A stretch of DNA of 64,000 bases from Halosimplex litoreum (GTDB lineage Archaea; Halobacteriota; Halobacteria; Halobacteriales; Haloarculaceae): positions 186,001 through 250,000 of the forward strand of contig NZ_CP065856.1 of the NCBI RefSeq assembly GCF_016065055.1. Reading direction: 5' to 3'. Numbering within the stretch: position 1 is the first letter of the stretch; each line of letters starts with the position of its first letter. Made by a program: the position numbers and the translations under genes. Below are positions 105 through 14,831 of the stretch, one piece after another. The notes below the pieces were generated by a model. It was not told the DNA's origin and did not search any database. It saw only the letters and a list, made by a program, of their open reading frames with translations.

Positions 105-1895
105 TCAGTCGAAGTGCCGTTGCAGCCAGAGCTCGATCGTCGTGATCGAACAGAGCGCGCTCGACTCGTCGCTCTCGCCGTCGAGGTGGCGCTGGCGGCG
201 GTCCTCGACGGCGACGCCGTCGAGGAACCAGCGGTCGCGCGCGTCGTCGATCAGGTCGTCGAGCCGCGACTGAATTTCGTCGTGATCCCTGTACCACTGG
301 CCGGCCATCGAAGTGCCGCCGTAGGTCGGGTCGCCGAGCAGGTGCGAGAGGCCGGTGCTGGCGAAGAAGCCGGCGACGTGGAGCGGGTACGGGAGACTCG
401 GCTTCAACCGCGACCGTTCGTAGGGGATCTCGGCGAGGTCGGCGTCCAGCAAGCGTATCATCCCGATTTTCGGCTTGACGACGCCGAAGATCAGCTCGCC
501 GTCGGAGCCGGGAAGCGCGCCCATCCGCCACGAGGGCGGGAGCCGCGCGGCGCTCTCGAGGAAGTCGCCGTCGGCGTAGGCGACGCGGGTCCCGCTCCGG
601 CCGCGGGCGACGGGGTTGCTCGCGTGCGCGAGGCGAGGATAGTAGTTCTGGAAGTGGGCGTCCACGACCGCCTGTTCGAAGTCGGTCTCCTCGGTTCGGG
701 CCGCTTCGCGTCGATACGAGCCCATCGGGTCCACGTCGGCGTCGACGATGTCCGTCACCTCCTCGGCCGGCAGCGACGCCTCGCTGTGGTACATCGAGTC
801 GACGAGCGACGACGCCTCCTGCAGGTGATACCGGCTGAGGTGCTGGCCCAACAGTTCGCCGACGATCCCCTCCATGAGGACGTTCGGCTCGCGGCCGTCG
901 ATGTTGTCGGTCGCGGTCAGGTTGAGCGCGAAGTTCCAGTTGACCAGCCCGTCGGTGGCGTCCACGGTCTTCTCCAGCGTCGGGAGGAATCGGTCGGGCG
1001 TCAACGGGACCGTCTCGTTGGGCAGTTCCAGCGTCTCCGCGACGTCCTCGGCGAGGCGGACGTTGATGCCGCCGCCGGGGTTGGCGTCGTACGTGTAGGT
1101 GGTCAGCGAGTCGAAGGCGTCACGCTCGCGCTGGACGCGCGCGAACTCGCTCACCGTCGCGCGGCTGTCGAGCCCCCCCGAGAGCCAGATCCCCACGTCG
1201 CCCGAGACGGTGTTGGCAGTCCGGTCGACCGTCCGCTTGAACTCCGCGGTCAGGTCGTGGAAGTACTCCGTCGTCGGTTCGGCGGGGTCGTAGTCCGGCC
1301 GCCAGTAGCGTCGCCCGGTCACCTCGCCGCCGTGATACTCGACGACAGTCCCCGGGTGAACCGACTTGACCCCCTCCAGCAGCGTCGTGTCGCTCCACAT
1401 GTGGCCCATCAGGATCAGGTCGCTCACGCCCTGGGGGTCCACGCTGGGGTCGTCGAGCGCGGGCATGAGCTGTGAGGTCCCTGAGGCGAAGGAGAATCCG
1501 TCGTCGTGTCGGTACACCGGCGGCCGGCTGCCGATCTTGTCGGTGGCGAGCAGGACCCGGTCCTCGCTCGCGTCGACCGCGGCGATCGTGAACGGCCCGT
1601 CCAGCGTTTCGAGCGTCGGGTCGGGCGCCTGGAGCAGCCGCTCGAAGATCGTCTCCGTGTCCCACCCGAGTTCGGCGCGGTTCGAGACCGCACCGTCGAT
1701 CACGCCCGCGGCCTGTCCGTCGCGCCAGAACGTATGCCCCTCCGGGTCCTTCTCGCCGTGGTGGCGGATCCCCACGCCGTGGGACCCGGTGTCGAAGCGG
1801 TCGGTCCCGTACCAGGACTCCCGGGCCATGGTGTCCAGCATGTCGTCGAGGACCGACTCGCCGACGGTGCCGCCGACGATCCCCGTCAGTGCCAT
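105..1895 (-). CDS. asparagine synthase-like protein without the glutaminase cysteine
   Basis: A 596-residue protein with an N-terminal Ntn-type glutamine amidotransferase-like domain (about 1-190) and a C-terminal asparagine synthetase/PP-loop ATPase domain, where the AMP-binding motif SGGLDS lies at 239-244. AsnB enzymes amidate a carboxylate using glutamine through Cys2. Here the chain starts MALTGIVGG, so Cys2 is missing and glutamine hydrolysis is unlikely. It may use free ammonia or another amine, or make an amide or lactam on a cell-surface polymer (inference). ATG 1895 is chosen because the upstream in-frame stretch is arginine-rich and unlike the family. It is divergent from a sulfatase-fold gene at the left edge of a surface-polymer cluster, where AsnB-like genes are common. 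Confidence 0.85.
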   Translation of the reverse strand: MALTGIVGGTVGESVLDDMLDTMARESWYGTDRFDTGSHGVGIRHHGEKDPEGHTFWRDGQAAGVIDGAVSNRAELGWDTETIFERLLQAPDPTLETLDGPFTIAAVDASEDRVLLATDKIGSRPPVYRHDDGFSFASGTSQLMPALDDPSVDPQGVSDLILMGHMWSDTTLLEGVKSVHPGTVVEYHGGEVTGRRYWRPDYDPAEPTTEYFHDLTAEFKRTVDRTANTVSGDVGIWLSGGLDSRATVSEFARVQRERDAFDSLTTYTYDANPGGGINVRLAEDVAETLELPNETVPLTPDRFLPTLEKTVDATDGLVNWNFALNLTATDNIDGREPNVLMEGIVGELLGQHLSRYHLQEASSLVDSMYHSEASLPAEEVTDIVDADVDPMGSYRREAARTEETDFEQAVVDAHFQNYYPRLAHASNPVARGRSGTRVAYADGDFLESAARLPPSWRMGALPGSDGELIFGVVKPKIGMIRLLDADLAEIPYERSRLKPSLPYPLHVAGFFASTGLSHLLGDPTYGGTSMAGQWYRDHDEIQSRLDDLIDDARDRWFLDGVAVEDRRQRHLDGESDESSALCSITTIELWLQRHFD

Positions 1896-2118
1896 CGCCG
1901 CCCCTCGGTCGTCGCGCCGCCGGCCTGTCTCCTGTCCCGCTCGTACGCAGTTCCCGTCATCGCCCCGAAGGTATCCGGCAGTGGGCTTTGGTATACGCCT
2001 CCTAAGCGGCGAGCGTGGGGATCGGGCGGCTCGAACGGGCGCCGCCGTGAGCCGGCGTCGACGGGTCGAGCTCCCGGTCGGCGTCGCCCGCATCGGGCAG
2101 CCGGCCAGGGTACAAGCC

Positions 2119-2127
2119 TTATAACAA
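2119..2127 (+). promoter_or_regulatory. TATA box with the TTATAACAA motif
   Basis: TTATAACAA lies 38 nt before the ATG at 2165, which leaves a short leader of about 12-15 nt. A similar ATAACAA box recurs before four other genes of this cluster (5411, 8229, 9957 and 5264). Confidence 0.55.
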
Positions 2128-2164
2128 TTCGGCTACGCAGGAAGGCTTACTCGACAGCGAAACG

Positions 2165-3115
2165 ATGCTCTCGAAACGCCAACTGCGACGAGTCGCGACG
2201 TGGGCCGTCGACAGCCCGAACCTGCTCGCCCGACAGGTCAACCGGGCCTATCACACCCGGGCGTTCAACCGCGAGTTCAACCACGACGGAGTGTCCGTCG
2301 TCGACGAGGACTGGGACACCCTGATCGTACTCGACGCCTGTCGGTACGACCTGTTCGAAGAACGCCACGACCTCCCAGGGACGCTCTCGGCCAGGGAGTC
2401 ACGGGCCGCCCACACCTCTGAGTTTATCCTCGGGAACTTCCACGAGCGGGACCTGACCGACACCGTCTACGTGACGGCCAGCCCGATCCTCGAACGGGGC
2501 TACCAGCACAAGTACGACCCGTCGTTCCACGCGGTCGTCAACGTCTGGCAGGAGGACGGGTGGGACGACGAGTACAACACCGTGCTGCCGGAGACGATGG
2601 CCGAGTACGCGCTGGAGACCGCCGAGCGCTACCCGAACAAGCGGCTGATCGTCCACTTCATGCAACCGCACTACCCGTTCGTCGGCTCGGGGCTGGCCCT
2701 GGACAAGGAGACCGTGCCCGATCCCGAGGAGATCGAGACCGACGTCTGGCACGAGATGATGCGCGAACGGGCGTCGATCACCCGAGAGGAGATCACCGAG
2801 GCCTACCATCGCAACTTCGACGTGGTCCAGCCCCACGTGCGGGAGTTGCTCGACGAACTCTCCGGCAAGAGCGTCGTCACCTCCGACCACGGCAACATGC
2901 TTGGCGAACGGGCCCGCCCGATCCCGATCCGCGAGTGGGGCCACCCCGACGGCGTCTACACCCCGGAGCTGGTGACGGTCCCGTGGCTCGAATACGAGAG
3001 CGGCCCGAGGCGAGAGGTCGTCGCCGAGGCGCCCATCGACGAGACCGAGGGCGACGACGCCGTCGAGGACGACGTGGTGACCGAGCGACTCAGGAACCTC
3101 GGCTACGCCGAGTAG
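2165..3115 (+). CDS. short sulfatase-fold (alkaline phosphatase superfamily) protein
   Basis: A 316-residue protein of the alkaline phosphatase/sulfatase superfamily. Metal-site motifs are visible: LDACRYD (Asp57), FMQPHYPF around residue 169, and SDHGNMLGE (Asp241, His242). The segment that carries the formylglycine Cys/Ser in true sulfatases reads AHTSEFILGN, with Thr84 as the best nucleophile candidate and no C-x-P-x-R. This favours a phospho-transfer or phosphodiesterase role, as in LtaS/EptA-type enzymes, over sulfate ester hydrolysis (inference). No signal peptide or membrane span is seen, so it is probably cytoplasmic. Short proteins of this type are common in haloarchaeal polysaccharide clusters. 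Its own TATA box is at 2119. Confidence 0.8.
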   Translation: MLSKRQLRRVATWAVDSPNLLARQVNRAYHTRAFNREFNHDGVSVVDEDWDTLIVLDACRYDLFEERHDLPGTLSARESRAAHTSEFILGNFHERDLTDTVYVTASPILERGYQHKYDPSFHAVVNVWQEDGWDDEYNTVLPETMAEYALETAERYPNKRLIVHFMQPHYPFVGSGLALDKETVPDPEEIETDVWHEMMRERASITREEITEAYHRNFDVVQPHVRELLDELSGKSVVTSDHGNMLGERARPIPIREWGHPDGVYTPELVTVPWLEYESGPRREVVAEAPIDETEGDDAVEDDVVTERLRNLGYAE

Positions 3116-3153
3116 GGGCGCGGTCGAGACGTGATCGAAGCCGGCCTCGCCGT

Positions 3154-4047
3154 TCAGTCCGAGAGCCGACGTTTGACGCGCCGGTAGTTGTTCTTCAGGA
3201 GGAACCGGCCGACGAAGCCGGGCTCCTCGCGCTGTTTCGTGTGGCTGTGGTAGGTCCCGAGTTCGTCTGGCTCCCACGGTTCGAAGTCGGGCGAGCGGAG
3301 CTTCTCGACGCCGGTGGCGAAGATCTCCCGCTGGATGGCCGCGGTCGCTTCGCCGATGTCGGCGTACGTCGGGTCGGGCGGGAGTTCCCGGGAGTCGATC
3401 TCGACGATCCGCCCGCCGTCGATGTCCTCCGTGAGCCGCTGGAGCGTCACGGCGACCCTGTCGTCGTCGTTGACGAAGGTGATCTTCGGTCCCATCCCGC
3501 GGTAGTCGCGGATGTCGCAGCCGTGCGTGCTGAGGACGCCGTGTTCGGGCGCGTCGAGGACCGGCCCCTTGAGGAGGCCGAACCCGAATCGGACGAGCAC
3601 GTCGCACTCCTCGCCGAGGGTCTCGGTGACATCCTCGGGGAGCGTGTTCCAGGCGCCGCCGGCCGGGACCGGGTCGACCTCGTGGGTCCGCACGTCGGAG
3701 AGGACGTCGACCGACTCGATAGGCTTGGACTGGCGCGCCTCCATCTGCTGGCGCTCGTCGAACAGCATCCACCCCAGCTTCCGGTCGGCGTAGATGAACG
3801 CCTTCAGTTTCTCGTCGCGCAGCACGTCGAAAAAGAGGCCGACGTCGGACGGGGCGACGCTGGCGCCGCGGTTGATCGCGTTGGCGCCCTGTTTGACTAC
3901 CGAGGAGTCGTCCCTGACCGACGCGTCGACGACGACGCGTTCGATGCTCGCGCCGTCGACGGCGTCGACGTTTTCGAGGGCCGCTTCCTGCCAGTGCAGT
4001 ACCATGGGGTTCGCGAGAACCCCGACTCGGATCGTGTTCTCAGTCAT
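3154..4047 (-). CDS. formyltransferase-fold protein (sugar N-formyltransferase-like)
   Basis: A 297-residue protein with the core of the methionyl-tRNA/ArnA formyltransferase family. The signature region reads LSTHGCDIRDYRG (from about residue 172), followed by EDIDGGRIV (Asp210). In characterised members the triad is Asn-x-His ... Asp. Here His175 and Asp210 are kept but the Asn is Ser173, so activity may be altered. It is not the housekeeping tRNA enzyme: archaea start with unformylated Met, and the neighbours are surface-polymer genes. Formylation of an amino sugar or related precursor is the likeliest role (inference). It lies 25 nt after the Asp-box gene in the same orientation, probably as an operon. 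Confidence 0.75.
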   Translation of the reverse strand: MTENTIRVGVLANPMVLHWQEAALENVDAVDGASIERVVVDASVRDDSSVVKQGANAINRGASVAPSDVGLFFDVLRDEKLKAFIYADRKLGWMLFDERQQMEARQSKPIESVDVLSDVRTHEVDPVPAGGAWNTLPEDVTETLGEECDVLVRFGFGLLKGPVLDAPEHGVLSTHGCDIRDYRGMGPKITFVNDDDRVAVTLQRLTEDIDGGRIVEIDSRELPPDPTYADIGEATAAIQREIFATGVEKLRSPDFEPWEPDELGTYHSHTKQREEPGFVGRFLLKNNYRRVKRRLSD

Positions 4048-4072
4048 GGGTTCGGTCCAGTCGTGGGTTGGG

Positions 4073-5236
4073 TCAGTCGTTCCCGGCGGCGCCCACCGCC
4101 GGGACGGCCGCCGGGTCGTCGTCGAACAGCAGTCGTTCGAGGTCGCTCGGCGGAACGCGGAGTATCTCGCCGTGGTGGCGGCTCGTGTTGTACGGGTTGA
4201 TCAGCACGCCCAGGTCGTCGTCGGCGCGGACGAACACGTAGGCGCTGGCGGCCGGGAGCGCCGCCAGCGCCTCGCCGAGGGCGGACCGACGGGTGAACGT
4301 GCACAGCTCGTGCCACTCGCGGTAGTCGGTCGCCGACGTAGTCGCGAGCACGCGGGCCGTCCGACTCCCGGAGTCGTCCCGGTCGGCGGTCGGCGCCGTG
4401 CTGTCGTAGCCACACTCGGCGGCCGTCGCGGCGACGACGACCGACTCGCCGCCCACCGACAGCGTCTCGACGTAGTAGACCGACTCCGCGGTCGTCCCGA
4501 CCGTCACGGGTTCGGGCTCCTCGTCGCCGATCCGCTCGCGCGGCAGCGCGAGCAGTTCGACTGTGTCGACGTACGGACAGTCCATCCCCCAGAGGACGGC
4601 GTCGGGCGTGAACGCCAGCCCGACCGCGCGCCAGCGCTGGCTTCCGGTCCCCACGGACCGAAACTCGCCGTCGACGAAGTAGCCGACCGCACTCTCGTCG
4701 TCCGTGTCGCCGGTGGTCCCCCAGAGCCGTTCGCCGTAGGGGTCGTGGAACAGCCCGTGGAAGTGCCGGGCGTCCGCCCGGACATGATACGTCGACCACG
4801 AGTGCCCCGCATCGTCACTGTGGAGGACGCGCGCGTCGTCGTCACCCAGCGGGTACTCCGCGAGATACAGACCGCCCTCGTGTTCGCACAGCGACGTGGG
4901 GAGTACGCCCATCGGGCCGGATGGGTCGGGCAACTCGTGGGCGACCGACCACGACCGCCCGCCGTCGGCGGAGGCGAACACCCACTGCCCGACGGTGGCG
5001 ACCAGGCCCTCGGCGCCGACCGGCCAGACGTTCGTCGTCGTGTACGCCCCGACGAGCGGTCCGAGCAAGCGCTTGGTCCGTCCCGCGTTCAGGACGCGGA
5101 ACCGAACCCCGTCCAGCCCGCGACCGGGACTCGGAATCGTCCCGCGGTCCGTAATCTCACTCCCTGGCCGCCACGCCGAGACGCGACGACCGTCCGCGCA
5201 GTAGCCGACCTGATTCCGGATCCCACCGAGTTGCAT
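4073..5236 (-). CDS. BNR/Asp-box beta-propeller protein
   Basis: A 387-residue protein with two clear Asp-boxes, SADGGRSWS (about residue 90) and SDDAGHSWS (about residue 140), in the spacing of sialidase-type beta-propellers. No signal peptide or transmembrane segment is visible, so it may be cytoplasmic or leave by an unrecognised route. The catalytic Arg triad and Tyr of sialidases cannot be identified, so I call only a propeller, possibly binding or processing a glycan. ATG 5236 lies 28 nt from a TTAACAA box; a GTG at 5254 would add six residues. It is probably co-transcribed with the formyltransferase-fold gene that follows. Confidence 0.7.
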   Translation of the reverse strand: MQLGGIRNQVGYCADGRRVSAWRPGSEITDRGTIPSPGRGLDGVRFRVLNAGRTKRLLGPLVGAYTTTNVWPVGAEGLVATVGQWVFASADGGRSWSVAHELPDPSGPMGVLPTSLCEHEGGLYLAEYPLGDDDARVLHSDDAGHSWSTYHVRADARHFHGLFHDPYGERLWGTTGDTDDESAVGYFVDGEFRSVGTGSQRWRAVGLAFTPDAVLWGMDCPYVDTVELLALPRERIGDEEPEPVTVGTTAESVYYVETLSVGGESVVVAATAAECGYDSTAPTADRDDSGSRTARVLATTSATDYREWHELCTFTRRSALGEALAALPAASAYVFVRADDDLGVLINPYNTSRHHGEILRVPPSDLERLLFDDDPAAVPAVGAAGND

Positions 5237-5263
5237 CGGTGTTCCGTACCCCACGGTCGCCCT

Positions 5264-5270
5264 TTGTTAA
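5264..5270 (-). promoter_or_regulatory. TATA-like TTAACAA box
   Basis: On the minus strand TTAACAA is followed by AGGG and lies 28 nt before ATG 5236, consistent with leaderless transcription. It resembles the ATAACAA boxes of neighbouring genes. Confidence 0.4.
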
Positions 5271-5410
5271 CGACTCAATACAGGGTCGGCCGTTCGTCTC
5301 ACCCGACCGCCAGTCCAGCGTCGTCCGGCGCGATCCGCCGCGTCGAGGCCAGCGACACTCGACCACAGCGAACGAGCCCATAGACTCGGGACGGTTCGTT
5401 TAAGCTGAAA

Positions 5411-5417
5411 ATAACAA
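5411..5417 (+). promoter_or_regulatory. TATA-like ATAACAA box
   Basis: AAAATAACAAG in an otherwise GC-rich stretch, 36 nt before GTG 5453 and 51 nt before ATG 5468. It is the only plausible promoter element for the DUF1616 gene. Confidence 0.45.
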
Positions 5418-5467
5418 GACCACCACGGGTCGATAGCTCGAACAGCATCTAGGTGACCACTCCAGCA

Positions 5468-6490
5468 ATGTCATTCATCACCGACGCGGGCGGCGCTCAC
5501 AGCGAAGCGAAATCCCTTCTGAAGGCAGCCGTGAGCCACCCGACAGCGTTGGCCGTGTTCGTCACCACCGGCGGGCTCGTCGTTCAGCTCGACGGGGTCC
5601 CGGGACCCGTCCGGACGGTCGTCGCGCTGCCGCTGGTGTTTTTCGCCCCGGGCTACATGCTCGCGGCGACGATATACCCCGAGCGGTACACTGGATCGCA
5701 CGGCGACGACGCGCTGCTGTCCGGCGGCGGGCGGGACCGCCACGGGCTCCACCCGCTCGAACGGATCGCCCTCTCCATCGGCCTCAGCGTCGCGATCGTT
5801 CCGCTGCTCGGCGTGGCCGTCTGGGCCGCCTTCGGCGAGTTCACTCGCGCACTCGTTCTCGCCGGTCTCGTGAGCGTCGTCGGTCTGCTGCTCCCGGTCG
5901 CGCTCGCTCGCCGCTACGGTCTCGCCCCGGACCGACGACTGGTCACCCGGCCCCGGACCCAGATCCGGCGTTTCGGTCGATGGCTCTCCGGGTCGTCGAC
6001 CGCGGAGACAGCGACGAACGTGGTCCTCGTGGCCAGTATCGTCCTCGCGGCGGGCGCGTTCACGTACGGGGTCGCGGTCCCCGTCGACGGCGAGTCCTAC
6101 TCTACCGCCGCGCTGCTCACGGATCAGGACGGCGGCCCGACCGCCGAGGGCTATCCGACGAACTTCACCGCCGGTGAGCCGGAGTCGCTGACGATACAGG
6201 TGACCAACAGCGAGAACGCGGAGACGAAGTACACGATCGTCGAAACGGTCGAACGGGTGACGATACGGAACTCCGGGATCGACGTCGTCGACCGGTCGGA
6301 ACTCGGTCGCGAACGGGTCACGCTCCGGGAGGGAGCGACCGCACGGCTCGACCGCGAAGTCGCGCCCGATTTGACGGGCGAGTCGCTCCAGCTCTCCTAC
6401 TACGTGTACAAGGGATCCGCACCGGAGCAGCCGAGTCGATCGACCGCGTACCGCGATCTCCACCTGTGGATCACCGTCGAGCCGGCCTGA
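5468..6490 (+). CDS. DUF1616 family membrane protein
   Basis: A 340-residue membrane protein. There are hydrophobic segments at about residues 20-40, 45-65, 105-125 and 130-150, a basic arginine-rich cytoplasmic loop, a further span near 190-205, then an external beta-rich domain (PTNFTAGEPESLTIQVTN, with an NFT sequon) ending in SYYVYKGSAPEQPSR. This matches DUF1616 proteins, which are found in archaeal cell-surface and polysaccharide clusters without a known reaction. An alternative GTG start at 5453 would add MTTPA. It is flanked by divergent and convergent cluster genes and is transcribed alone. Confidence 0.7.
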   Translation: MSFITDAGGAHSEAKSLLKAAVSHPTALAVFVTTGGLVVQLDGVPGPVRTVVALPLVFFAPGYMLAATIYPERYTGSHGDDALLSGGGRDRHGLHPLERIALSIGLSVAIVPLLGVAVWAAFGEFTRALVLAGLVSVVGLLLPVALARRYGLAPDRRLVTRPRTQIRRFGRWLSGSSTAETATNVVLVASIVLAAGAFTYGVAVPVDGESYSTAALLTDQDGGPTAEGYPTNFTAGEPESLTIQVTNSENAETKYTIVETVERVTIRNSGIDVVDRSELGRERVTLREGATARLDREVAPDLTGESLQLSYYVYKGSAPEQPSRSTAYRDLHLWITVEPA

Positions 6491-6541
6491 GAGACCACCG
6501 GTTCGGCGCTCCGGCGGAATCGCCTCCCGTTCCCTCCCCGG

Positions 6542-8197
6542 TCACGGCTGGGCGTATTTGAGATACTCCGGCGACCGGTCCAGCACCCGCCCGAAGTAGG
6601 TTCCGCCCTCGTTGCGGGTAGAGGCGACCGAGTACGGCGCGGTCGCGGACATCTCGACGCAGACGTTCGAGTCGGTTCCTGATTCGTCCGTCCCGAACAC
6701 CTGTGTCTGGTCGGCGCCGGCCGATGCCTCGGTCGCGATGGAGATCCGCGGCCCGAGACAGAGCAACTCTTCGGCGCTGTCCGACGAGTCGTCGGTGTAC
6801 ACCCAGAGCGGGTACCGGCTCGATTCACAGGCGTAGCGCGTCACTCGCGACCCGGCGGAGTTCGCCAGAAAGAGCCCGTCTCGCCCGCGGGCGTCCCGCT
6901 GGGTGATCGTCAGCCCGTCTATCTCCGACCCCGGCCGACCGTTGACGAGCACGTCGACGGCCTGCGACGCGGTGGTGTCGATCTCGATGTCCCGGAGCGT
7001 GATATCCCAGGGCCGCTCCGGGGCTCCGCCCATCTCACTGGCGCCCGGCGGCGCGACCTGTATCGCTCGGAAGCCGTCTCGGTCGATATCGAAGGTGCAG
7101 TCGCGCACGGCCAGCCGCCCCGCGGTCCCGTCGACCTCGACGAGTCCGCGGGCGTATTCGGCCGATCTGACCGCGAACTCGCAGCTCTCGATGGCACCGC
7201 CGGTCTTCCCCTGCCAGCCCGACTCCCACCAGATACCACGGACGGCGTTGTAGTCGCCGGCGACGCGGTCGGCGGCGTCCGTGTCTATCTCGATGGTCGC
7301 GTCCCTGACGAACGAGTCCTCGCCGCAGACCCTGATCTGGGAGACCGCGTTGTTCCTGAACGTCCCGCCGGTGATCTGGACCGGACCGTTGGTTCTGCTG
7401 GCGTAGACGCCGTTGCTTCCGCACTGTTCGATGTGACAGTCGAGCAGCTGCAGCGTGCCGTAGTGATGGGGGCCGCTGAAGAACGCGACGAACGCGTCGG
7501 GGTACACGCCCACTTCCCCGCCGCCTCTGTTCACGTACCGTTCGACCGTGCCCCGTCCGGACGAGTCGGTGACCTGGACGATGAGATCCTTCGTGCCGTT
7601 CTCGGTCGGGGAGAATCCCCCGACCTCGACGTCGCGGACGACGAGCCCGTCTCGCTGGTGTATCAACAGCCCGGAGTTGGTCACCCTGTCGTCGGTCTGG
7701 TCGGCAGTGAAGTTCTCGAACAGCGAGCCGCTGCCGGAGGTGACGTGTAGCAGCCGACTGCTGTACCCCTCCGGGTGGACGAACCGCACGTCACGCCGGC
7801 TGTCGCCCGTGCCTCGCATACCGAAGGAGATGTCGCCGTCGACCTCGATCGGTCTGGTCACCAGGTACTCGCCCGGCGGGAACTCGATCAACGTCCCGTC
7901 GGCGATCGCCGCCTCGATGGCGTCGTCGCAGGGCTCGGAGCCGTCGGGCGCACACCCGCTGTCGGCCACGGCGTCGACCACCGTCCGGAATTCGGGTTCC
8001 GGCGTCGGCGTCGGTGACGGCGTGGACGACGCCGTCGAGAGGGCGCGCGCGTCCGTCTCTGCCGGAGGGGACCGCGTCGCGGTCGGAGGGGTCGCCCGCG
8101 ACCGCTCCGGCCGCTCGTCGGATCCCAACCAGTTACACCCCGCGACGGAGCCCGTCGCGCCGACACTCACGAGTCCGAGGAACTGACGCCTGTTCAT
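6542..8197 (-). CDS. Tat lipoprotein with right-handed beta-helix domain
   Basis: A 551-residue secreted lipoprotein. The N-terminus MNRRQFLGLV is a twin-arginine signal, followed by lipobox SVAGC, so it should be folded before export and anchored by lipid. A Thr/Pro/Ser-rich linker (to about residue 70) leads to a pectate-lyase-like right-handed beta-helix. Signs are FPPGEYLVTRPIEVDG near the start and many repeated short strands (LLHVTSGS, LLIHQRDGLVVRDVEVGG, ITGGTFRNN, IESCEFAV). Proteins of this fold bind or cleave polysaccharides, but no catalytic residues could be assigned. ATG 8197 begins exactly at the Tat signal, so the ten upstream in-frame codons are probably leader. Confidence 0.8.
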   Translation of the reverse strand: MNRRQFLGLVSVGATGSVAGCNWLGSDERPERSRATPPTATRSPPAETDARALSTASSTPSPTPTPEPEFRTVVDAVADSGCAPDGSEPCDDAIEAAIADGTLIEFPPGEYLVTRPIEVDGDISFGMRGTGDSRRDVRFVHPEGYSSRLLHVTSGSGSLFENFTADQTDDRVTNSGLLIHQRDGLVVRDVEVGGFSPTENGTKDLIVQVTDSSGRGTVERYVNRGGGEVGVYPDAFVAFFSGPHHYGTLQLLDCHIEQCGSNGVYASRTNGPVQITGGTFRNNAVSQIRVCGEDSFVRDATIEIDTDAADRVAGDYNAVRGIWWESGWQGKTGGAIESCEFAVRSAEYARGLVEVDGTAGRLAVRDCTFDIDRDGFRAIQVAPPGASEMGGAPERPWDITLRDIEIDTTASQAVDVLVNGRPGSEIDGLTITQRDARGRDGLFLANSAGSRVTRYACESSRYPLWVYTDDSSDSAEELLCLGPRISIATEASAGADQTQVFGTDESGTDSNVCVEMSATAPYSVASTRNEGGTYFGRVLDRSPEYLKYAQP

Positions 8198-8228
8198 TTC
8201 GTCGGCGGACGTTTCGGCGGTACGCACA

Positions 8229-8237
8229 TTGTTATAC
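8229..8237 (-). promoter_or_regulatory. TATA box with the GTATAACAA motif
   Basis: Minus-strand GTATAACAA ends 32 nt before ATG 8197. It is a member of the recurring ATAACAA promoter set. Confidence 0.5.
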
Positions 8238-8472
8238 CCAGAGTCACTCGCCGGTAAGGCCCGTTTTCGCCGCGCAGTACGGCCGTTTCCGGCCCGCTCG
8301 CGCGTTCCGGCTCGACTCGTGGCGCCGACTCGGGACCCGGCTCGCGCCCGGGCCGAGCGTCGGCGATCGAGCGGTGGAGTCGGTCCCGGACCGCGTCCGG
8401 TGTCGTCTCGACGCGCTCCCCGCCGGTAGTATGGATTACATTACATTGGCGGTGGAACGCGCGTCCCCACGC

Positions 8473-9861
8473 ATGAGCCAACAGGACGTGGTCTGGGTGA
8501 CGCTCGAAAGCGTCCGGTGGGACCACACGTCGCTGTCGGAACACGCCCGGGACACGACGCCGACGCTGTCCCGACTCGCGGCGGAGGGCCGGGGGTACGA
8601 CGACTGCTTCTCCCACGACATCTGGACGCGGGCCTCGACCGCGTCCATCCTCACCGGCCGGGCGTCGTCGGCCCACCGAACCTGGTCGAACGACGCGGGC
8701 CTCCCCGACCCCATCGAGACGATCCCCGAGGCCTTCCGCGAGGCGGGCTATCGGACGGTCGGGATCTCGCCCAACGGCCAGTTCGGGCCGGGGACCGGAC
8801 TCGACCGCGGCTTCGACGACTTCCACTATCTCACCAGGTCGACGCTGTCGAGCGAAGTCGGACTCGTCTCGCTCGTGCGGTGGGCCGCGAACCTCCGCCG
8901 GCACTCGGGCGGGTTCACCCGCGACGGGAACCAGCACTGTCTCGGCTACCTCAGCACGAACGTTGCCAAGCGACACGTCCGCCGGGCCGCGACGGACGAC
9001 CGACCGCTCTTTCTCTACGTCCACTACGGCGACTCTCACCACGCGTACGTGCCGCCGATCGCCTGGCGCGAGCGGTTCGCCGACGACCTCCCGATGCCGG
9101 TCGACGAGGCGGTCGACGTCGCGCTCGACATGTCCGACCGGATGTACGAACACATCGCCGACGGGGTCCCGTTCGACGACGACGAGTGGACGGCGCTCCG
9201 GACGCTGTACGACACCGCCGTCGCCTACGTCGACCACCTGACCGGGGAGCTGGTCGCCGCGGCCCGACGCGACCTGGCGGACCCGGTCATCGTCGTGACC
9301 GCCGACCACGGCGAGCTGTTCGGCGAGCGGGGGCTGCTCGCGCACATGCTCGTCAACAACGCCGCCGTCTCGAACGTCCCCCTGGTCGTCGCCGGCGGGA
9401 CGGACTTCCCCGAGACGGGGCCGATACAGCACGCGGACGTGATGAAGATGCTCTGTCGCGACCTCGGCGTGGACCACCCGGTCCCGGTCGGTCGCGACCT
9501 GCGCGAGCGAGACAGGGAGTTCGCCGTCGTACAGCGGAGCGGCGCTCGAACGCGGCACAAGCTGGACCAGATCACGAGGCACAATCCGGAGTTTCCACAG
9601 GGAGAGTACCACACCGACGACGTCACCGCACTGTTCACGTCCGAGTGGTGCTACCGACGCACCGACGACGACGAGGAACTCGTCGCCCGGGGCGGAGAAT
9701 CGGTCGACGCGAGCGCCGACCGACCGGCGGTGACGGCCGAACTGCGGGCCGAGTGCCAGCGATGGCTCGAAGAGCACGGCCGACCCGTCGGCGAGACCGA
9801 GCGCGTGGACTTCGACGAGAACACCGAGGCGCAGCTCCGCGAGCTCGGATACCTGCAGTGA
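8473..9861 (+). CDS. sulfatase-fold hydrolase/transferase with Thr at the nucleophile position
   Basis: A 462-residue alkaline phosphatase-superfamily protein. Metal-site motifs are LESVRWDH (Glu12, Asp17) near the start and TADHGELFGERG about two thirds along. The activation segment reads WTRASTASILTG (51-62). Aligned with the sulfatase signature C/S-x-P-x-R-ASLLTG it puts Thr52 at the nucleophile site and lacks Pro and Arg, so it cannot be matured by a formylglycine enzyme. A phosphoglycerol- or phosphoethanolamine-type transferase or phosphodiesterase is more likely (inference). No signal peptide. ATG 8473 lies about 25 nt after the AT-rich TTACATTACATT; an in-frame ATG at 8431 is possible. 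Confidence 0.8.
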   Translation: MSQQDVVWVTLESVRWDHTSLSEHARDTTPTLSRLAAEGRGYDDCFSHDIWTRASTASILTGRASSAHRTWSNDAGLPDPIETIPEAFREAGYRTVGISPNGQFGPGTGLDRGFDDFHYLTRSTLSSEVGLVSLVRWAANLRRHSGGFTRDGNQHCLGYLSTNVAKRHVRRAATDDRPLFLYVHYGDSHHAYVPPIAWRERFADDLPMPVDEAVDVALDMSDRMYEHIADGVPFDDDEWTALRTLYDTAVAYVDHLTGELVAAARRDLADPVIVVTADHGELFGERGLLAHMLVNNAAVSNVPLVVAGGTDFPETGPIQHADVMKMLCRDLGVDHPVPVGRDLRERDREFAVVQRSGARTRHKLDQITRHNPEFPQGEYHTDDVTALFTSEWCYRRTDDDEELVARGGESVDASADRPAVTAELRAECQRWLEEHGRPVGETERVDFDENTEAQLRELGYLQ

Positions 9862-9935
9862 CCGACGCGGGCACCGTCCGTCGACCGGGCGGAACCGGAC
9901 ACGACCGGCCGGGGACGGAGACCGGGTATGCGTGG

Positions 9936-9964
9936 TATAATACGGGATCTACGGGCTATAACAA
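9936..9964 (+). promoter_or_regulatory. double TATA box (GTATAATAC and TATAACAA)
   Basis: Two AT-rich boxes lie about 20 nt apart, GTATAATAC at 9935-9943 and TATAACAA at 9957-9964. The second is 26 nt before ATG 9990, the leaderless spacing, and belongs to the ATAACAA set. Confidence 0.5.
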
Positions 9965-9989
9965 AGGGCCGAGTCGCTGATGTCCCGAT

Positions 9990-11789
9990 ATGCTCACGGG
10001 GACCGGATCGGTTCGACATCGGTCCGATACGGCATCGAAGGGCGCACTCGCCGTCGGGTATCTCGCGTTGCTGGTCGCGGTCGTCGCCGCCCACACGTCC
10101 CCCGCGACCGGGTACGAGCTCTCCGTCTACGCGCGGACGCCGACCGCGTTCTGGATCGGCGTCGGCGTGGCGACGGCCGTCGGACTCGTCACGGCGCTGT
10201 TCGCGAGGACCGTCGCGAGTCGAGTGCTCGGGCTCGGACTGGGCGTGGGTTCCTACGCCGCGCTCGTCTGCCTCCCGCTGTTGCGAAACTACCACTACTT
10301 CGGACGCGGCGACGGCCTGACTCATCTGGGCTGGACCCGGGGGATCCTCGCCGGCCAGAAGGAGGTGCTCTCGATGCTTTACCCCGGGATCCACACGTTC
10401 GCGATATTCGTCGGCGAGTCCGCCGGCCTGCCGCTCACTCGGTCGCTGCTGTACGTCGTCTCCGCGTTCGCGGTGGTGTTCGCGCTGTTCGTCCCGATGT
10501 GCGCCTGGGCACTCACCGGGGACCTGCGGACGACCACGATCGCGGCGTTCTCGGCGTTCCTGCTGTTGCCGATCACCAACGTCAGCACGCAGCTCGCGCC
10601 CCACACCACGACGCAGACGGTGTTGTTCCTGCCCGTGGTCGTCTATCTGTTCGTCCGGTACCTGCGCTCGGACCGGGACGGAACGCTCGTCCCGACCGGC
10701 GTCGGGGCACTGTTCGCGCTCGTGCTCGCCGCGCTCGTGGTCTATCACCCGCAGCAGGCGCTGAACTTCCTGTTGATGCTGGCGACGGTCTGCGGTCTGC
10801 AACTGGTCGCCCGTCGATGGACCTCGCACCCGTCGGTCACCGAACCGCGCCGGGTGTACGCCCCGACGGGATTCCTCGCGGTGTTCTGGATCGCCTGGTC
10901 CCGAGGCCACGAGCGATTCCAGTCGGGCGCGACCAACGCCCTGGGGGAAATCGTGACGGCGCTTACCGGCGGCGGCGGGGTCGCGGCCGACACGGCCCAG
11001 CGAGGCGGGTCGCTGGCGGCGATCGGCTCGGGTCTGGTCGAGATCTTCCTGAAGATCTTCTCGGTCGCGAGCGTCTACAGCGCCGTCACCGCCGCCGTGC
11101 TACTCCTCGCCCTGTTCTGGAAACTCGGCGGCGACGACCCCGTCGAATCGTCGTTTCACCGCTACGTGGCGGCTGCGCTCGTCCCGGTGACGGCGCTGTT
11201 CGGCCTCTACCTGGTCGGGAGCGTCAGCACGCAGGCGTTCCGTCACCTCGGATTCCTGCTGGTCTTCGTCACGCTGCTCGGAGCGGTCGGGCTCGGCCGA
11301 GGGTGGGACACGCTCTCCGACCGGCTGCCGGGGGCGCCGGTGGGGTCGGCGATCGCGGCCTTCCTCGCGGTCGCACTCGTCGTCTCCGCCCTGACTGTCT
11401 TCCCGTCGCCGTGGATCTACCTGCCCTCCCAGCACGTCTCCGAACAGAGCATGTCCGGGTACGAGACGACCTTCGAACACGCGACCGTGAGCGATGGAGT
11501 GTACAGCGTCCGGGGCGGTTCCGACCGCTTCGCGGACGCATACTACGCCCGGAAGGTGCCCAACACGCCGTTCGGGTCGGTCAACGAGACCGCCATGCGG
11601 ACTGACCTCTCGACCTATCACGGGACTGGGTGGTACTTCGCCGTCAGCGAAGCCGACCGCAAACGCGAGGTGTCTGCCTACGACCAGCTGCGGTACTCCC
11701 GCGAGAGCTTCGCGCTCGTTCGCACCCAACGCGGCGTGAACAGTATCGTCGACAACGGCGATTTCGAGCTGTACTACGTGACCGGGTGA
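9990..11789 (+). CDS. polytopic membrane protein, glycosyltransferase-C or O-antigen-polymerase-like topology
   Basis: A 599-residue integral membrane protein with about 11-13 predicted spans up to residue 480, then a soluble external C-terminal domain of about 120 residues. A conserved-looking loop after the third span reads YFGRGDGLTHLGWTRGI; acidic first loops of this kind occur in GT-C glycosyltransferases and polymerases, but no exact family could be named. It lies 7 nt before the flippase gene and is certainly co-transcribed with it. It probably polymerises, ligates or transfers a lipid-linked surface glycan (inference). Confidence 0.65.
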   Translation: MLTGTGSVRHRSDTASKGALAVGYLALLVAVVAAHTSPATGYELSVYARTPTAFWIGVGVATAVGLVTALFARTVASRVLGLGLGVGSYAALVCLPLLRNYHYFGRGDGLTHLGWTRGILAGQKEVLSMLYPGIHTFAIFVGESAGLPLTRSLLYVVSAFAVVFALFVPMCAWALTGDLRTTTIAAFSAFLLLPITNVSTQLAPHTTTQTVLFLPVVVYLFVRYLRSDRDGTLVPTGVGALFALVLAALVVYHPQQALNFLLMLATVCGLQLVARRWTSHPSVTEPRRVYAPTGFLAVFWIAWSRGHERFQSGATNALGEIVTALTGGGGVAADTAQRGGSLAAIGSGLVEIFLKIFSVASVYSAVTAAVLLLALFWKLGGDDPVESSFHRYVAAALVPVTALFGLYLVGSVSTQAFRHLGFLLVFVTLLGAVGLGRGWDTLSDRLPGAPVGSAIAAFLAVALVVSALTVFPSPWIYLPSQHVSEQSMSGYETTFEHATVSDGVYSVRGGSDRFADAYYARKVPNTPFGSVNETAMRTDLSTYHGTGWYFAVSEADRKREVSAYDQLRYSRESFALVRTQRGVNSIVDNGDFELYYVTG

Positions 11790-11796
11790 GTCCCGA

Positions 11797-13284
11797 ATGA
11801 GCGAGCAAACGACGGTCCGACGGCTGCTCGTCGGCCTTCAGGCGAAGCTGGGCGCCGATATCCTCCGTACGGGATCCAAGGGGCTGCTGTTGTTGGTACT
11901 CACGCGATATCTGTTGGCCCCGGAGGAGTTCGGGCTCCTGTTTTTCGCGATATCCGTCCTGGCGGTGGCGCGGCTGGGCGCGAACCTCGGCTTCGCCAAG
12001 TCCACGGCACGGTACGTCTCCGACTACATGCAGAGCGACGAGTCCCAGATCCGACACATCGTCCGCACCGGTGTGGCGTACAATCTGGTTGCGATAACCG
12101 TCGTCGGTCTCGCCCTGGCGGGCTTCCATCGCGAGATAGCGGCGCTACTGAACGAACCCGCGCTGGCACCGTTCCTGCTGCTGGGTCCGTTGTTCGTCAT
12201 GTTCACGTCCCTGCGGGTGTTCGCGCGGTTGATCTTTCAGGGGTTCAACGAGGTGTGGTGGAGCGCGCTCGTCTCGACGGTCTCCAGCGTGGCACAGCTC
12301 GCACTCGTGGTGGGGTTCGTCCTGCTGGGCTACGACGCGGTCGGCGCCTTCCTCGGGTACATCGGCGCGGCCGCACTCGCGTCACTGGCGGGGTTCGCCG
12401 TCCTCTACTGGAAGTTCTATCGACGGCTCCCGGAGACCGACGCCGTCGACGAGAGCCTGAGAGGGAGGATCCTGCGATACAGCTTCCCGCTCGCCGGGAC
12501 CCGCGGGGCCGGCGTGCTCACGAACAGAGTCGACCAGCTCCTCATCGGATACCTCCTCACGCCGGCGGCCGTCTCGTTCTACACGCTCGGTAAACAGATC
12601 TCGGAGTTCGTCATGACGCCCGCGATGTCGCTCGGGTTCGTCGTCTCGCCGGCGTACAGCAGCGAGAAAGCCGACGACCAGCTCGGGCGCGCCAGCCGGA
12701 TGTACGAGAAGAGCTTCGAGAACATCGTGTTGCTGTACGTGCCCGCCGCCACCGGGCTCGTCCTGGTCGCGAGGCCCACCATCCGATTCGTCGTCGGACA
12801 GGAGTACCTGGGCGCGGTCCCGGTCATTCAGGTGCTCTCCGTGTTCGTCGTCGTGAAGTCTATCGACAACATCACCAACGACGGGCTGGATTACCTCGGT
12901 CGAGCGCGCGAGCGCGCGGTCGTCAAAATCTCCGGTGCGGTGGCCAACTTCGTCCTGAACGTCCTGTTCATCCCGGTGATGGGGGTCGTGGGGGCCGCGG
13001 TCGCAACGGTCCTGACGACGTCGGCCGTCGTCGCCGTCAACGTCTACATCATCGGGCAAGAGCTGGAGATCTCGCTGTGGGCGCTCGGTGCGGCCACGGT
13101 CCGGATCGCCGCGATCGCGGCCGTGATGGGGGGTATCGTCTGGGCCGCCCTCCCGTTCGTCTCGGGGATCCCGTCGCTGCTCGCCGTGATCGCCGCCGGC
13201 GCGATCGCCTGGGCGGTCATGGCGACCGTCGGCGGGTTCATCGACCCGGACGATGTGGAGACGGTTCTGGCGAACATCACCTGA
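11797..13284 (+). CDS. polysaccharide flippase (Wzx/MOP superfamily)
   Basis: A 495-residue protein with about 14 predicted membrane helices. Its N-terminal pattern (GSKGLLLLVLTRYLLAPEEF and the YGR-like region after it) is typical of the polysaccharide transport branch of the MOP superfamily, which includes Wzx and haloarchaeal AglR-type proteins. It should flip lipid-linked oligosaccharide across the membrane. It follows the polytopic gene by 7 nt and is the best functional anchor for calling the whole 0-13 kb region a surface-glycan cluster. Confidence 0.85.
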   Translation: MSEQTTVRRLLVGLQAKLGADILRTGSKGLLLLVLTRYLLAPEEFGLLFFAISVLAVARLGANLGFAKSTARYVSDYMQSDESQIRHIVRTGVAYNLVAITVVGLALAGFHREIAALLNEPALAPFLLLGPLFVMFTSLRVFARLIFQGFNEVWWSALVSTVSSVAQLALVVGFVLLGYDAVGAFLGYIGAAALASLAGFAVLYWKFYRRLPETDAVDESLRGRILRYSFPLAGTRGAGVLTNRVDQLLIGYLLTPAAVSFYTLGKQISEFVMTPAMSLGFVVSPAYSSEKADDQLGRASRMYEKSFENIVLLYVPAATGLVLVARPTIRFVVGQEYLGAVPVIQVLSVFVVVKSIDNITNDGLDYLGRARERAVVKISGAVANFVLNVLFIPVMGVVGAAVATVLTTSAVVAVNVYIIGQELEISLWALGAATVRIAAIAAVMGGIVWAALPFVSGIPSLLAVIAAGAIAWAVMATVGGFIDPDDVETVLANIT

Positions 13285-13334: not shown

Positions 13335-14831
13335 TCAGAGCCAGCCGACCAGCGGCGCGAGCAGCAGGGTGACCCACAGTAGGGTGCCGGCGGCGACGAT
13401 CCGGTCGACCGTCTCGGTCGACGCGCGCGGACTGACCGATCCCGCCGCGAGGAGTCCGATCGCGACGACGATCCCGACGCGGTGGACCACAACGTCGAGC
13501 GACAGCACGGTGACGCCGAGGCTCTGGTAGTCGACGACGATAGCCGAGCCCACGCCGAGGGCCGCGACCGCGAAGCTCCGGATGGGGTCCAGATTCCGCC
13601 CGAACACCTGTGCGGCCGCCGGGAGCCCGAGCGCCAGAATCGGGTACAGCAGGGCGGCGATGACCTTCGGCGAGGTGTCGGCGAATCGGTGTTCGAGCGC
13701 GATCCCACCGAACCTGACCGCCAGGTACAGCCCGAACAGCGCCGCGAACAGCGAGAGGTACGACAGTCCGCGGACGGCCAGGATCGACCGCTCGCGGTCG
13801 AGCCAGCCGCGCGTGACCAGCCCGGAGACGAGCGCGCGCCGTGCGGTCCCGACGGGGCCCGTCTTCAGGCGTCCGGATCGGCCAGCCCCGCCGGACCCGG
13901 TCGCCAGCGCGCCGTCGGCGGACGCGCTTCCCCATCGGCGCCGCCGGGTCAGCGCGGCCGCGTCCCGGCCGGCGACGAGCCCCATCGCGGCGAGTCCCGA
14001 CCCGAGGTTCGGAACGCCGACCAGGCCGGCGAAGTCGACGACCGTCGCCCAGCCGTCGGAGCCCAGCGCCCGCCTGTTCCCGAGATACATCCGCCAGACG
14101 GTGTCGACCGAGGGCTCGCCCATGAACTCGGCTTCGAGTCGGTCGCGCGTCCCGTCGGTCGAGTGGACGGTGTGACGCAGCCGGAACCAGTCCCAGTGGT
14201 CGCTGTGGGCCTGGACGGCGACCCACTCGTCGGACTCGAACGGTGACTCGTAGATCCGGAGGTGGTCGCGAGCGCCGAAGTAGGTCCCGTCGTGTAACTG
14301 GTAGGTCTCGTCTATCCACCGCCCGCCCGGATTGGGGTCGAGGTGGCCGGTGAACGGCGCCGCGCGGTAGGGTCGGCGCGTCTCGTTGGGACCCGGTTCG
14401 GTCAGCGCGTAGTTGTGAACGTAGAGATACCGGGTCGCGCCGCGCGCCCCGGCCCACTCGACGACCGTGCCGTTCGCCGCCTCGACCGGCGGCCCACCGG
14501 TGTCGGGGCCCACGTCTTCCCACTCGGCGGCCGTCTCGTTCCAGGTAGCGCCGCCCCGTTCGGCCAGGAAGTACCGGACGGTCTCGGCGTCCGCGTAGAC
14601 GACGAGGTTGATCGCGAGGGTCCGCCCGCCCGCCGACTGGCGGGTGCTCGTGTACGGCCAGAAGACGTTCTCGCCCGGCCGGGGTTCGACCAGTGTCGCC
14701 GGCGTCGTCCCGACCGCGGGGTCGGCCGGGCCCGCCGCCGAGAGCACGAGCGATCCCGCGCCCGCGACCAGCACGACGGCGACGAGCAGGCCCAGCGCGG
14801 TCGACGTCTTCGGGGGCCACGACTGCTTCAC
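13335..14831 (-). CDS. haloarchaeal membrane protein with external domain, unknown function
   Basis: A 498-residue protein. It has a signal anchor at about residues 12-32, an external domain to about residue 265, a basic Arg/Gly-rich loop (about 285-330) and five or six C-terminal membrane spans. The external domain has an aromatic stretch RDHLRIYESP ... AHSDHWDWFRLRHTVHSTDG ... that loosely resembles LssY C-terminal domains (low confidence). Sequons are present (NET, NGT). ATG 14831 lies 25 nt after a GTAAACG box. It is convergent with the flippase gene and separated from the Trk genes by 133 nt, so it belongs to neither operon clearly. Confidence 0.6.
   Translation of the reverse strand: MKQSWPPKTSTALGLLVAVVLVAGAGSLVLSAAGPADPAVGTTPATLVEPRPGENVFWPYTSTRQSAGGRTLAINLVVYADAETVRYFLAERGGATWNETAAEWEDVGPDTGGPPVEAANGTVVEWAGARGATRYLYVHNYALTEPGPNETRRPYRAAPFTGHLDPNPGGRWIDETYQLHDGTYFGARDHLRIYESPFESDEWVAVQAHSDHWDWFRLRHTVHSTDGTRDRLEAEFMGEPSVDTVWRMYLGNRRALGSDGWATVVDFAGLVGVPNLGSGLAAMGLVAGRDAAALTRRRRWGSASADGALATGSGGAGRSGRLKTGPVGTARRALVSGLVTRGWLDRERSILAVRGLSYLSLFAALFGLYLAVRFGGIALEHRFADTSPKVIAALLYPILALGLPAAAQVFGRNLDPIRSFAVAALGVGSAIVVDYQSLGVTVLSLDVVVHRVGIVVAIGLLAAGSVSPRASTETVDRIVAAGTLLWVTLLLAPLVGWL

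Follow-up and report, generated by a model that had tools for sequence, protein, structure and literature searches.

The genes at 105-13284 of the window, the whole 64-kb stretch of Halosimplex litoreum DNA that was analysed, raise the question whether enzymes with seemingly altered active sites mark an undescribed surface-glycan system, as an earlier note had proposed, or belong to a locus of wider distribution. The cluster is well supported as one copy of a surface-polysaccharide locus common to many haloarchaea; the locus is larger than the cluster, having its second half in the window and extending for about 9.3 kb upstream of it. Every gene named in the earlier note is present, and the assignment to a surface-glycan cluster holds, the gene set co-occurring far above chance. 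The expectation of amide, acyl or phosphate chemistry instead of the annotated reactions is also supported as the best reading, namely that an amino-sugar acid undergoes amide and acyl chemistry and probably phosphate chemistry as well. We infer the individual reactions and the structure of the polymer from the gene content, the conserved residues, the co-occurrence and the predicted folds of two proteins, SulS and GH88L. To the whole pathway, a flippase-exported polymer of the Wbp/Vim type in which an amino-uronic acid is deacetylated, re-N-acylated and amidated, with Thr-type phospho-chemistry in addition, we assign a probability of about 0.55.

The AsnB-like protein (105-1895, minus strand, 596 aa) consists of a degenerate glutaminase domain and a kept ATP-pyrophosphatase domain. 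Its N-terminus reads MALTGIVGG, with Thr at the Cys2 position (codon at 1884-1886, minus strand), and the NGE glutamine-binding motif is changed to DGA; the N-terminal Cys nucleophile and the NGE motif of glutamine-dependent asparagine synthetase are therefore both absent. Sixteen close relatives show 14 Thr, one Ser, one Val and no Cys at this position. The pyrophosphate-binding loop SGGLDSR of the synthetase domain (1161-1181, minus strand) is kept and is invariant in the family alignment. The nearest solved relative is 7ylz, and against the NCBIfam family WbpS/eps_aminotran_1 (TIGR03108) the protein scores 45 bits, far below the cut-off of 817. Thr2 as an N-terminal nucleophile was considered and rejected, because the NGE motif is lost too and one relative has Val. 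Relatives without the Cys are already known in beta-lactam synthetase and the lasso-peptide cyclases, which likewise keep the synthetase loop and have lost Cys2; the AsnB-like protein differs from them in its polysaccharide gene context.

SulS (2165-3115, plus strand) is a short soluble enzyme of the alkaline-phosphatase superfamily with a predicted Thr nucleophile, and SulL (8473-9861, plus strand) is a sulfatase-fold protein without signal sequence or transmembrane segment. Thr84 of SulS (2414-2416, plus strand; Thr in 29/29 short sequences and invariant in the family alignment) and Thr52 of SulL (8626-8628, plus strand; 28 Thr, 2 Ser and no Cys among 30 long sequences) occupy the formylglycine position. 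The C/S-x-P-x-R formylglycine motif is absent from both proteins, with Thr in first place and neither P nor R, and the metal site of the superfamily (N-terminal Asp, DHG) is present in both. Residues D57, T84, H169, D241, H242 and H260 of SulS are invariant and match the EptA site when paired by motif order, not by coordinates, the residue roles in EptA being taken from PMC10525099. SulS thus has the Thr nucleophile and the Asp/Glu, His, Asp-His and His metal ligands of the EptA/LtaS type. It has no hydrophobic segments and so lacks the membrane domain that goes with an exported catalytic domain.

A PDB sequence search with SulS gave no match even at E 5 and its profile gave only weak matches, so that a fold search was needed. 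The predicted structure (pLDDT 86.7) matches EptA and MCR-type folds with Z 14.7, and sulfatases and phosphonate hydrolases match it nearly as well (Z about 14). SulS shares its fold, its Thr nucleophile and its complement of metal-binding residues with EptA, MCR-1, LtaS and LtaP, whereas SulS and SulL are without membrane domain or signal and about 15% identical to these proteins. Thr is the usual nucleophile in the phosphoethanolamine-transferase and LtaS branch of the fold (PMC10525099, PMC7576196). In the H. litoreum genome, too, the majority of sulfatase-domain proteins are of the non-Cys kind.

FmtL (3154-4047, minus strand) is a formyltransferase-fold, N-acyltransferase-like protein. 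Its Ser173 (3529-3531, minus strand) falls at the alignment position of the catalytic Asn in Fmt and ArnA, which is held by Ser in 25, Gly in three and Asn in none of 28 FmtL-like sequences. FmtL retains His175 and Asp210 and has lost the HxSLLP motif; it carries neither the full Asn-His-Asp site nor the HxSLLPxxxG of 10-formyl-THF formyltransferases. In FDH the formyltransferase Asn is naturally Ile (PMC4388273). Fold and active-site His and Asp agree with methionyl-tRNA formyltransferase and the ArnA formyltransferase domain, from which FmtL differs by the change of Asn to Ser, the loss of HxSLLP and its pairing with deacetylase-fold genes, one of which directly precedes FmtL in 11/28 cases, often overlapping it. 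The plasmid FmtL genes of Natrialba magadii, Halorubrum lacusprofundi and Natronorubrum aibiense sit outside such loci, so FmtL is not confined to this locus type. A search of plasmids and phages for a bacterial home of Ser-type formyltransferases gave only weak matches outside the haloarchaea.

The putative deacetylase-fold gene PDA1, the candidate for a VimE-like deacetylase, lies just upstream of the window; it has no Pfam match itself, and its relatives are named polysaccharide deacetylase family. A route like that of ArnA and ArnD would have a formyl group placed on the sugar amine ahead of its transfer to the lipid carrier and taken off afterwards, leaving the mature polymer free of formyl groups. 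One of the best solved relatives of FmtL is the formyltransferase domain of ArnA, ArnD shares the deacetylase fold, and the 11 cases of pairing also speak for such a route, but we consider it unlikely: PDA1 occurs without FmtL beside FemAB-type transferases in three genomes (G024, G004, G101), where re-acylation fits better.

The unusual residues reported earlier for AsnB, FmtL, SulS and SulL are thus confirmed, but a view of the sites as altered is not supported, as the same residues are what these families normally carry. Their conservation across each family excludes chance or sequencing error. Nor is it supported that they mark an undescribed system, Thr-type and Cys-less relatives being already known. 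An ordinary polysaccharide locus in which these residues mean little would make a plain uronamide from ammonia by AsnB, use FmtL as a normal N-formyltransferase and employ the sulfatase-fold proteins as housekeeping phosphodiesterases. Precedents exist for each of the variants (PMC4388273, PMC7576196, PMC13060819), and SulS occurs in 104/116 genomes and SulL-type proteins in 102/116. Close members of the AsnB and SulS families are strongly linked to the locus, however, which suggests a locus-specific role and makes the ordinary locus a rather improbable explanation.

Modular versions of the locus occur in three haloarchaeal families. GH88L lies within 25 kb of SulS in 21/25 genomes against 0.95 expected, AsnB co-occurs with SulS in 7/8 genomes, and the BNR protein with GH88L in 14/17. 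Clusters keeping these genes together, which the earlier note had proposed to look for, therefore exist in other haloarchaea, and the absence of conserved co-occurrence that the note named as a refutation does not apply. AsnB and FmtL are accessory to the locus. The window, a Haloterrigena plasmid and H. carlsbadense (there on two contigs) have both genes; most versions of the locus have one or neither. A scan of genome contigs gave only H. carlsbadense. For GH88L no meaningful PDB sequence match was obtained; its predicted model resembles cellobiose 2-epimerase and the barrels of GH76, 88 and 105, a likeness that fits an epimerase as well as a hydrolase.

The window further encodes a BNR/Asp-box propeller protein without signal sequence (4073-5254, minus strand), a beta-helix protein with twin-arginine signal and lipobox (RRQFLG...VAGC; 6542-8227, minus strand), and a polysaccharide flippase (11797-13284, plus strand; PF01943, PF13440) of the Wzx type, as expected in a Wzx/Wzy polysaccharide locus. 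The protein at 9990-11789 (plus strand), formerly described as a polytopic transferase, is indeed polytopic with about 11 transmembrane segments; it has no assigned family, and a profile search gave no match. Two of its relatives match DUF6541 weakly, it recurs in related haloarchaeal loci, and it is a candidate polymerase or GT-C transferase.

In this protein an early loop contains a conserved Asp and the tail is soluble, as would suit a GT-C or oligosaccharyltransferase-like enzyme placing the glycan onto S-layer or secreted proteins, in which case the locus would serve protein glycosylation and contain no polymerase at this place. DUF1616 and flippase genes are also frequent near archaeal glycosylation genes. 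We regard this function as doubtful, as profile searches gave no AglB or STT3 signal in the polytopic protein and the presence of secreted beta-helix proteins points to a polymer.

Evidence for the Wbp/Vim-type polymer comes from related loci. Complete Wbp-type sets (WbpD-, E-, B-, A- and I-like) together with PDA1, a FemAB-type gene and GH88L adjoin AsnB in genome G037, in Haloferax mediterranei, where the copy is on a megaplasmid, and on H. gibbonsii plasmids. A Salinigranum plasmid carries the same locus type, and in G034, G101, G024, G004, G027 and G008 the locus has Wbp-type genes as neighbours. In H. litoreum, a group of genes at 568-579 kb comprises WbpA/B/D/E-like genes (568-576 kb) together with a paralogue of AsnB and a deacetylase-like gene of the ELxWG type. 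The Wbp-type genes are 384 kb from the window, so that within this genome their link to the window locus is by analogy. A search of the H. litoreum genome (G000) for a VimA-type FemAB homologue gave no match at 1e-8, and none is present in G034 and G087, the genomes whose FmtL type is nearest to that of the window. H. carlsbadense has both FmtL and FemAB; replacement of FemAB by FmtL is therefore not strict.

The precedent is the Wbp/Vim system of Porphyromonas gingivalis (WbpA/B/E/D, VimE, VimA and the AsnB-type WbpS; PMC7468200), which shares with the haloarchaeal loci the Wbp-type enzymes, a deacetylase-fold enzyme, acyltransferases of the FemAB/GNAT type and an AsnB-type gene. The haloarchaeal locus differs in being archaeal and in its AsnB without Cys2 and with the low TIGR03108 score, and the window copy in having FmtL and no FemAB; added are the Thr-type alkaline-phosphatase-superfamily proteins, the GH88-like barrel, BNR and beta-helix proteins. 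The acidic exopolysaccharide loci of Haloarcula hispanica and Haloferax mediterranei (PMC5467301, PMC9943897) also serve a haloarchaeal acidic polysaccharide, and the H. hispanica cluster likewise holds an 'arylsulfatase A family' gene. So far as the two papers were searched, they describe no AsnB-like, formyltransferase-like or Wbp-type genes for these clusters. The H. mediterranei exopolysaccharide reported to date contains Man and 2-amino-GlcA, not a diamino-uronamide, which speaks against the Wbp/Vim-type pathway.

In the preferred pathway, the cytoplasmic Wbp-type enzymes of the second locus, near 569-577 kb, would make a 2,3-diamino-2,3-dideoxy-uronic acid, which PDA1 would then de-N-acetylate. 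The freed amine would receive a formyl or other acyl group from FmtL, which would here stand in for the FemAB/VimA-type enzyme found in related loci. The AsnB-like protein would activate the C6 carboxylate with ATP and, having no glutaminase, couple free ammonia or another amine. SulS and SulL may attack phosphodiesters with their Thr nucleophile, by which the lipid-linked unit would either gain or lose a phospho-substituent. Once the flippase has exported the unit, the polytopic protein would polymerise or transfer it, and the polymer would be bound or trimmed by the secreted beta-helix proteins. We suggest only tentatively a more specific archaeal counterpart of Wbp/Vim, in which the C6 carboxylate of a 2,3-diamino-uronic acid is joined by the Cys-less AsnB-type ligase to an amine not derived from glutamine, such as an amino acid, the Ser-type formyltransferase homologue replaces VimA, and soluble EptA-like enzymes add phospho-substituents in the cytoplasm.

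That the annotation is literally true, with real sulfatases, a glutamine-dependent amidotransferase and a formyltransferase, is very hard to credit: the Pfam domains match and the genome has an FGE gene, but C-x-P-x-R, Cys2 and the NGE motif are all absent, and the three C-x-P-x-R sulfatases encoded elsewhere in the genome are different proteins. Many haloarchaeal 'sulfatases' of the SulS and SulL kind cannot be formylglycine sulfatases, and a likely mis-annotation is thereby corrected. The assembly of acidic surface polymers in haloarchaea is little understood, and the locus type offers a concrete gene list with predicted chemistry. Its presence in Haloferax mediterranei and H. gibbonsii makes the chemistry of the Cys-less AsnB and the Ser-type formyltransferase homologue directly testable, as Haloferax can be genetically modified.

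The BNR homologues of genomes G067 and G011 are located outside such loci. One gene of the cluster, for a DUF1616 membrane protein (5468-6490, plus strand; E 3.5e-76), had been overlooked in the earlier note.

The locus lies on the single 4.16 Mb contig of a member of the genus Halosimplex and encodes, in the window (G000:C1:186001-250000), an AsnB-like protein (105-1895, minus strand), a short sulfatase-fold protein, SulS (2165-3115, plus), a formyltransferase-fold protein, FmtL (3154-4047, minus), a BNR propeller (4073-5254, minus), a DUF1616 protein (5468-6490, plus), a beta-helix lipoprotein (6542-8227, minus), a long sulfatase-fold protein, SulL (8473-9861, plus), an 11-TM protein (9990-11789, plus) and a flippase (11797-13284, plus). 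It starts upstream of the window at G000:C1:176662; this part (extracted as L043) encodes the deacetylase-fold protein PDA1, an ATP-grasp protein, the GH88/epimerase-like (alpha/alpha)6 protein GH88L, a GT4 glycosyltransferase, a Tat beta-helix/PKD protein and a second polysaccharide deacetylase. The gene order is conserved in Halosimplex carlsbadense (75-95% identity). There, PDA1 and the ATP-grasp gene are separated by about 6.4 kb (phosphodiesterase, FemAB, GH88L, FemAB) that is missing from the window's genome, where the corresponding parts lie about 0.2 kb apart (L043:10662-12948 versus L239:1488-10100), reflecting either a deletion here or an insertion in H. carlsbadense. The membrane protein encoded at window positions 13335-14831 (minus) combines about six hydrophobic segments with a large soluble domain; it has no match in Pfam and is 89% identical to its counterpart at the same position in H. 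carlsbadense. Directly upstream of the locus (L043:8670-9989) lies a gene for a TnpB-like protein (Cas12f1-like TNB domain), adjoined by a small ribbon-helix-like gene.

The earlier note had proposed a surface-glycan cluster, and clusters keeping these genes together were found in other haloarchaea. In a sample of 116 genomes, locus gene pairs lie within 25 kb far more often than expected by chance (4 Mb genome size, kinship ignored): GH88L-SulS in 21 of 25 genomes (0.95 expected), GH88L-BNR in 14/17 (0.22), AsnB-SulS in 7/8 (0.20), GH88L-AsnB in 7/9 (0.22) and FmtL-SulS in 7/21 (0.56). The first contigs of G024 and G084 are of equal length with identical matches at identical coordinates, so the counts probably include one redundant genome. 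Loci of this kind also occur on plasmids, namely in Salinigranum, Haloferax, Haloarcula, Natronorubrum and Haloterrigena. The accessory genes AsnB and FmtL co-occur in the window, on one Haloterrigena plasmid and, spread over two contigs, in H. carlsbadense. A shared surface-polysaccharide locus is very likely.

The altered active sites noted earlier in four enzymes were all confirmed and are family-wide. SulS, whose family occurs in 104 of the 116 sampled genomes (same taxonomic family), has Thr at the formylglycine position in 29/29 sequences; SulL has 28 Thr, 2 Ser and no Cys (n=30). The AsnB-like protein, counted in the window copy plus ten relatives from genomes and five from plasmids, has 14 Thr, 1 Ser, 1 Val and no Cys at position 2 (n=16), with the SGGxDSR loop retained. 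Of the sulfatase-domain proteins in the window's genome, which also encodes an FGE homologue, three have C-x-P-x-R and almost all the rest have Thr or Ser at the formylglycine position (one of the twelve was scored solely from its own motif, TPSSVPVLFTG). This makes the Thr type, as judged from sequence, a distinct and common branch rather than a decayed sulfatase.

In fold, the predicted SulS model (pLDDT 86.7) matches EptA (Z 14.7, rmsd 3.0, 203 residues) and MCR-1/ICR (Z about 14.5), phosphoethanolamine transferases with a Thr nucleophile, level with phosphonate hydrolases and sulfatases (Z about 14). Paired by motif order, the invariant SulS residues D57, T84, H169, D241, H242 and H260 fit the EptA site (Glu240, Thr280, His383, Asp452, His453, His465; PMC10525099). 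A Thr nucleophile is also used by LtaS and YejM (PMC7576196), and one SulS homologue is annotated as 'LTA synthase family protein'. No TM segment or signal was found in the SulS and SulL sequences, so that both, unlike EptA, probably act in the cytoplasm. The GH88L model (pLDDT 74.6) is similar to cellobiose 2-epimerase (Z 29) as well as to GH76, 88 and 105 barrels.

FmtL has 25 Ser, 3 Gly and no Asn at the catalytic-Asn position (n=28), with His and Asp retained. Since FDH has Ile at this position (PMC4388273) and HypX works with a modified triad (PMC6802093), this loss alone does not exclude formyl chemistry, and the main rival to an acyl step is transient formylation of the ArnA/ArnD type. 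A deacetylase-fold gene directly precedes FmtL in 11 of 28 cases (nine PF01522, two PDA1-type); in several of them the two reading frames overlap, and the arrangement recurs in Natronorubrum bangense. PDA1 is followed by a FemAB-type gene in G024, G004 and G101 and by FmtL in G034 and G087; no FemAB homologue was found in the latter two or in the window's genome. As H. carlsbadense encodes both, replacement of FemAB by FmtL is a tendency and no strict rule. This gene order and the position after PDA1 support an acyl step that FmtL would carry out once deacetylation is done.

Full versions of the locus encode a hexapeptide acyltransferase, a DegT aminotransferase, a Gfo/Idh/MocA oxidoreductase, a nucleotide-sugar dehydrogenase and a UDP-GlcNAc 2-epimerase. 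In the sampled genome G037 and on H. mediterranei and H. gibbonsii plasmids this Wbp-type set adjoins PDA1, GH88L and FemAB-type transferases, the same composition as the bacterial Wbp/Vim pathway. In that pathway the Wbp enzymes form a 2,3-di-N-acetylated uronic acid. VimE and VimA are believed to remove an acetyl group and to attach an amino acid, respectively, and the uronamide is the product of WbpS, an AsnB-type enzyme (PMC7468200). In the window's genome, WbpA/B/D/E-like genes cluster at 568-579 kb with one for an AsnB paralogue and one for a deacetylase-like protein. Amino-uronic acid chemistry of the Wbp/Vim-like type is favoured by a modest margin.

In published work, the EPS gene clusters of Haloarcula hispanica include an 'arylsulfatase A family' protein alongside glycosyltransferases (PMC5467301, PMC9943897). 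Neither this locus type nor the Wbp/Vim parallel was found described in the haloarchaeal literature, a weak absence as subscription journals lay largely outside the search.

The H. mediterranei megaplasmid pHME505 (339496-381289) carries a full version with a Cys-less AsnB, and an EPS structure has been published for this host, a laboratory strain. The cluster at 568-579 kb spans G000:C1:568244-578663 (L232:8245-18664); its AsnB paralogue starts MTGLIG and its deacetylase-like gene is of the ELAWGF type. In other Halosimplex genomes the loop of the synthetase domain is altered in the paralogues (FPGDGDSR or similar), which makes it doubtful that they are active. Two more clusters of the SulS and SulL type lie in the window's genome at G000:C1:1413000-1432900 and 3722000-3741900, one with another AsnB-like gene; such proteins thus recur in several glycan loci.
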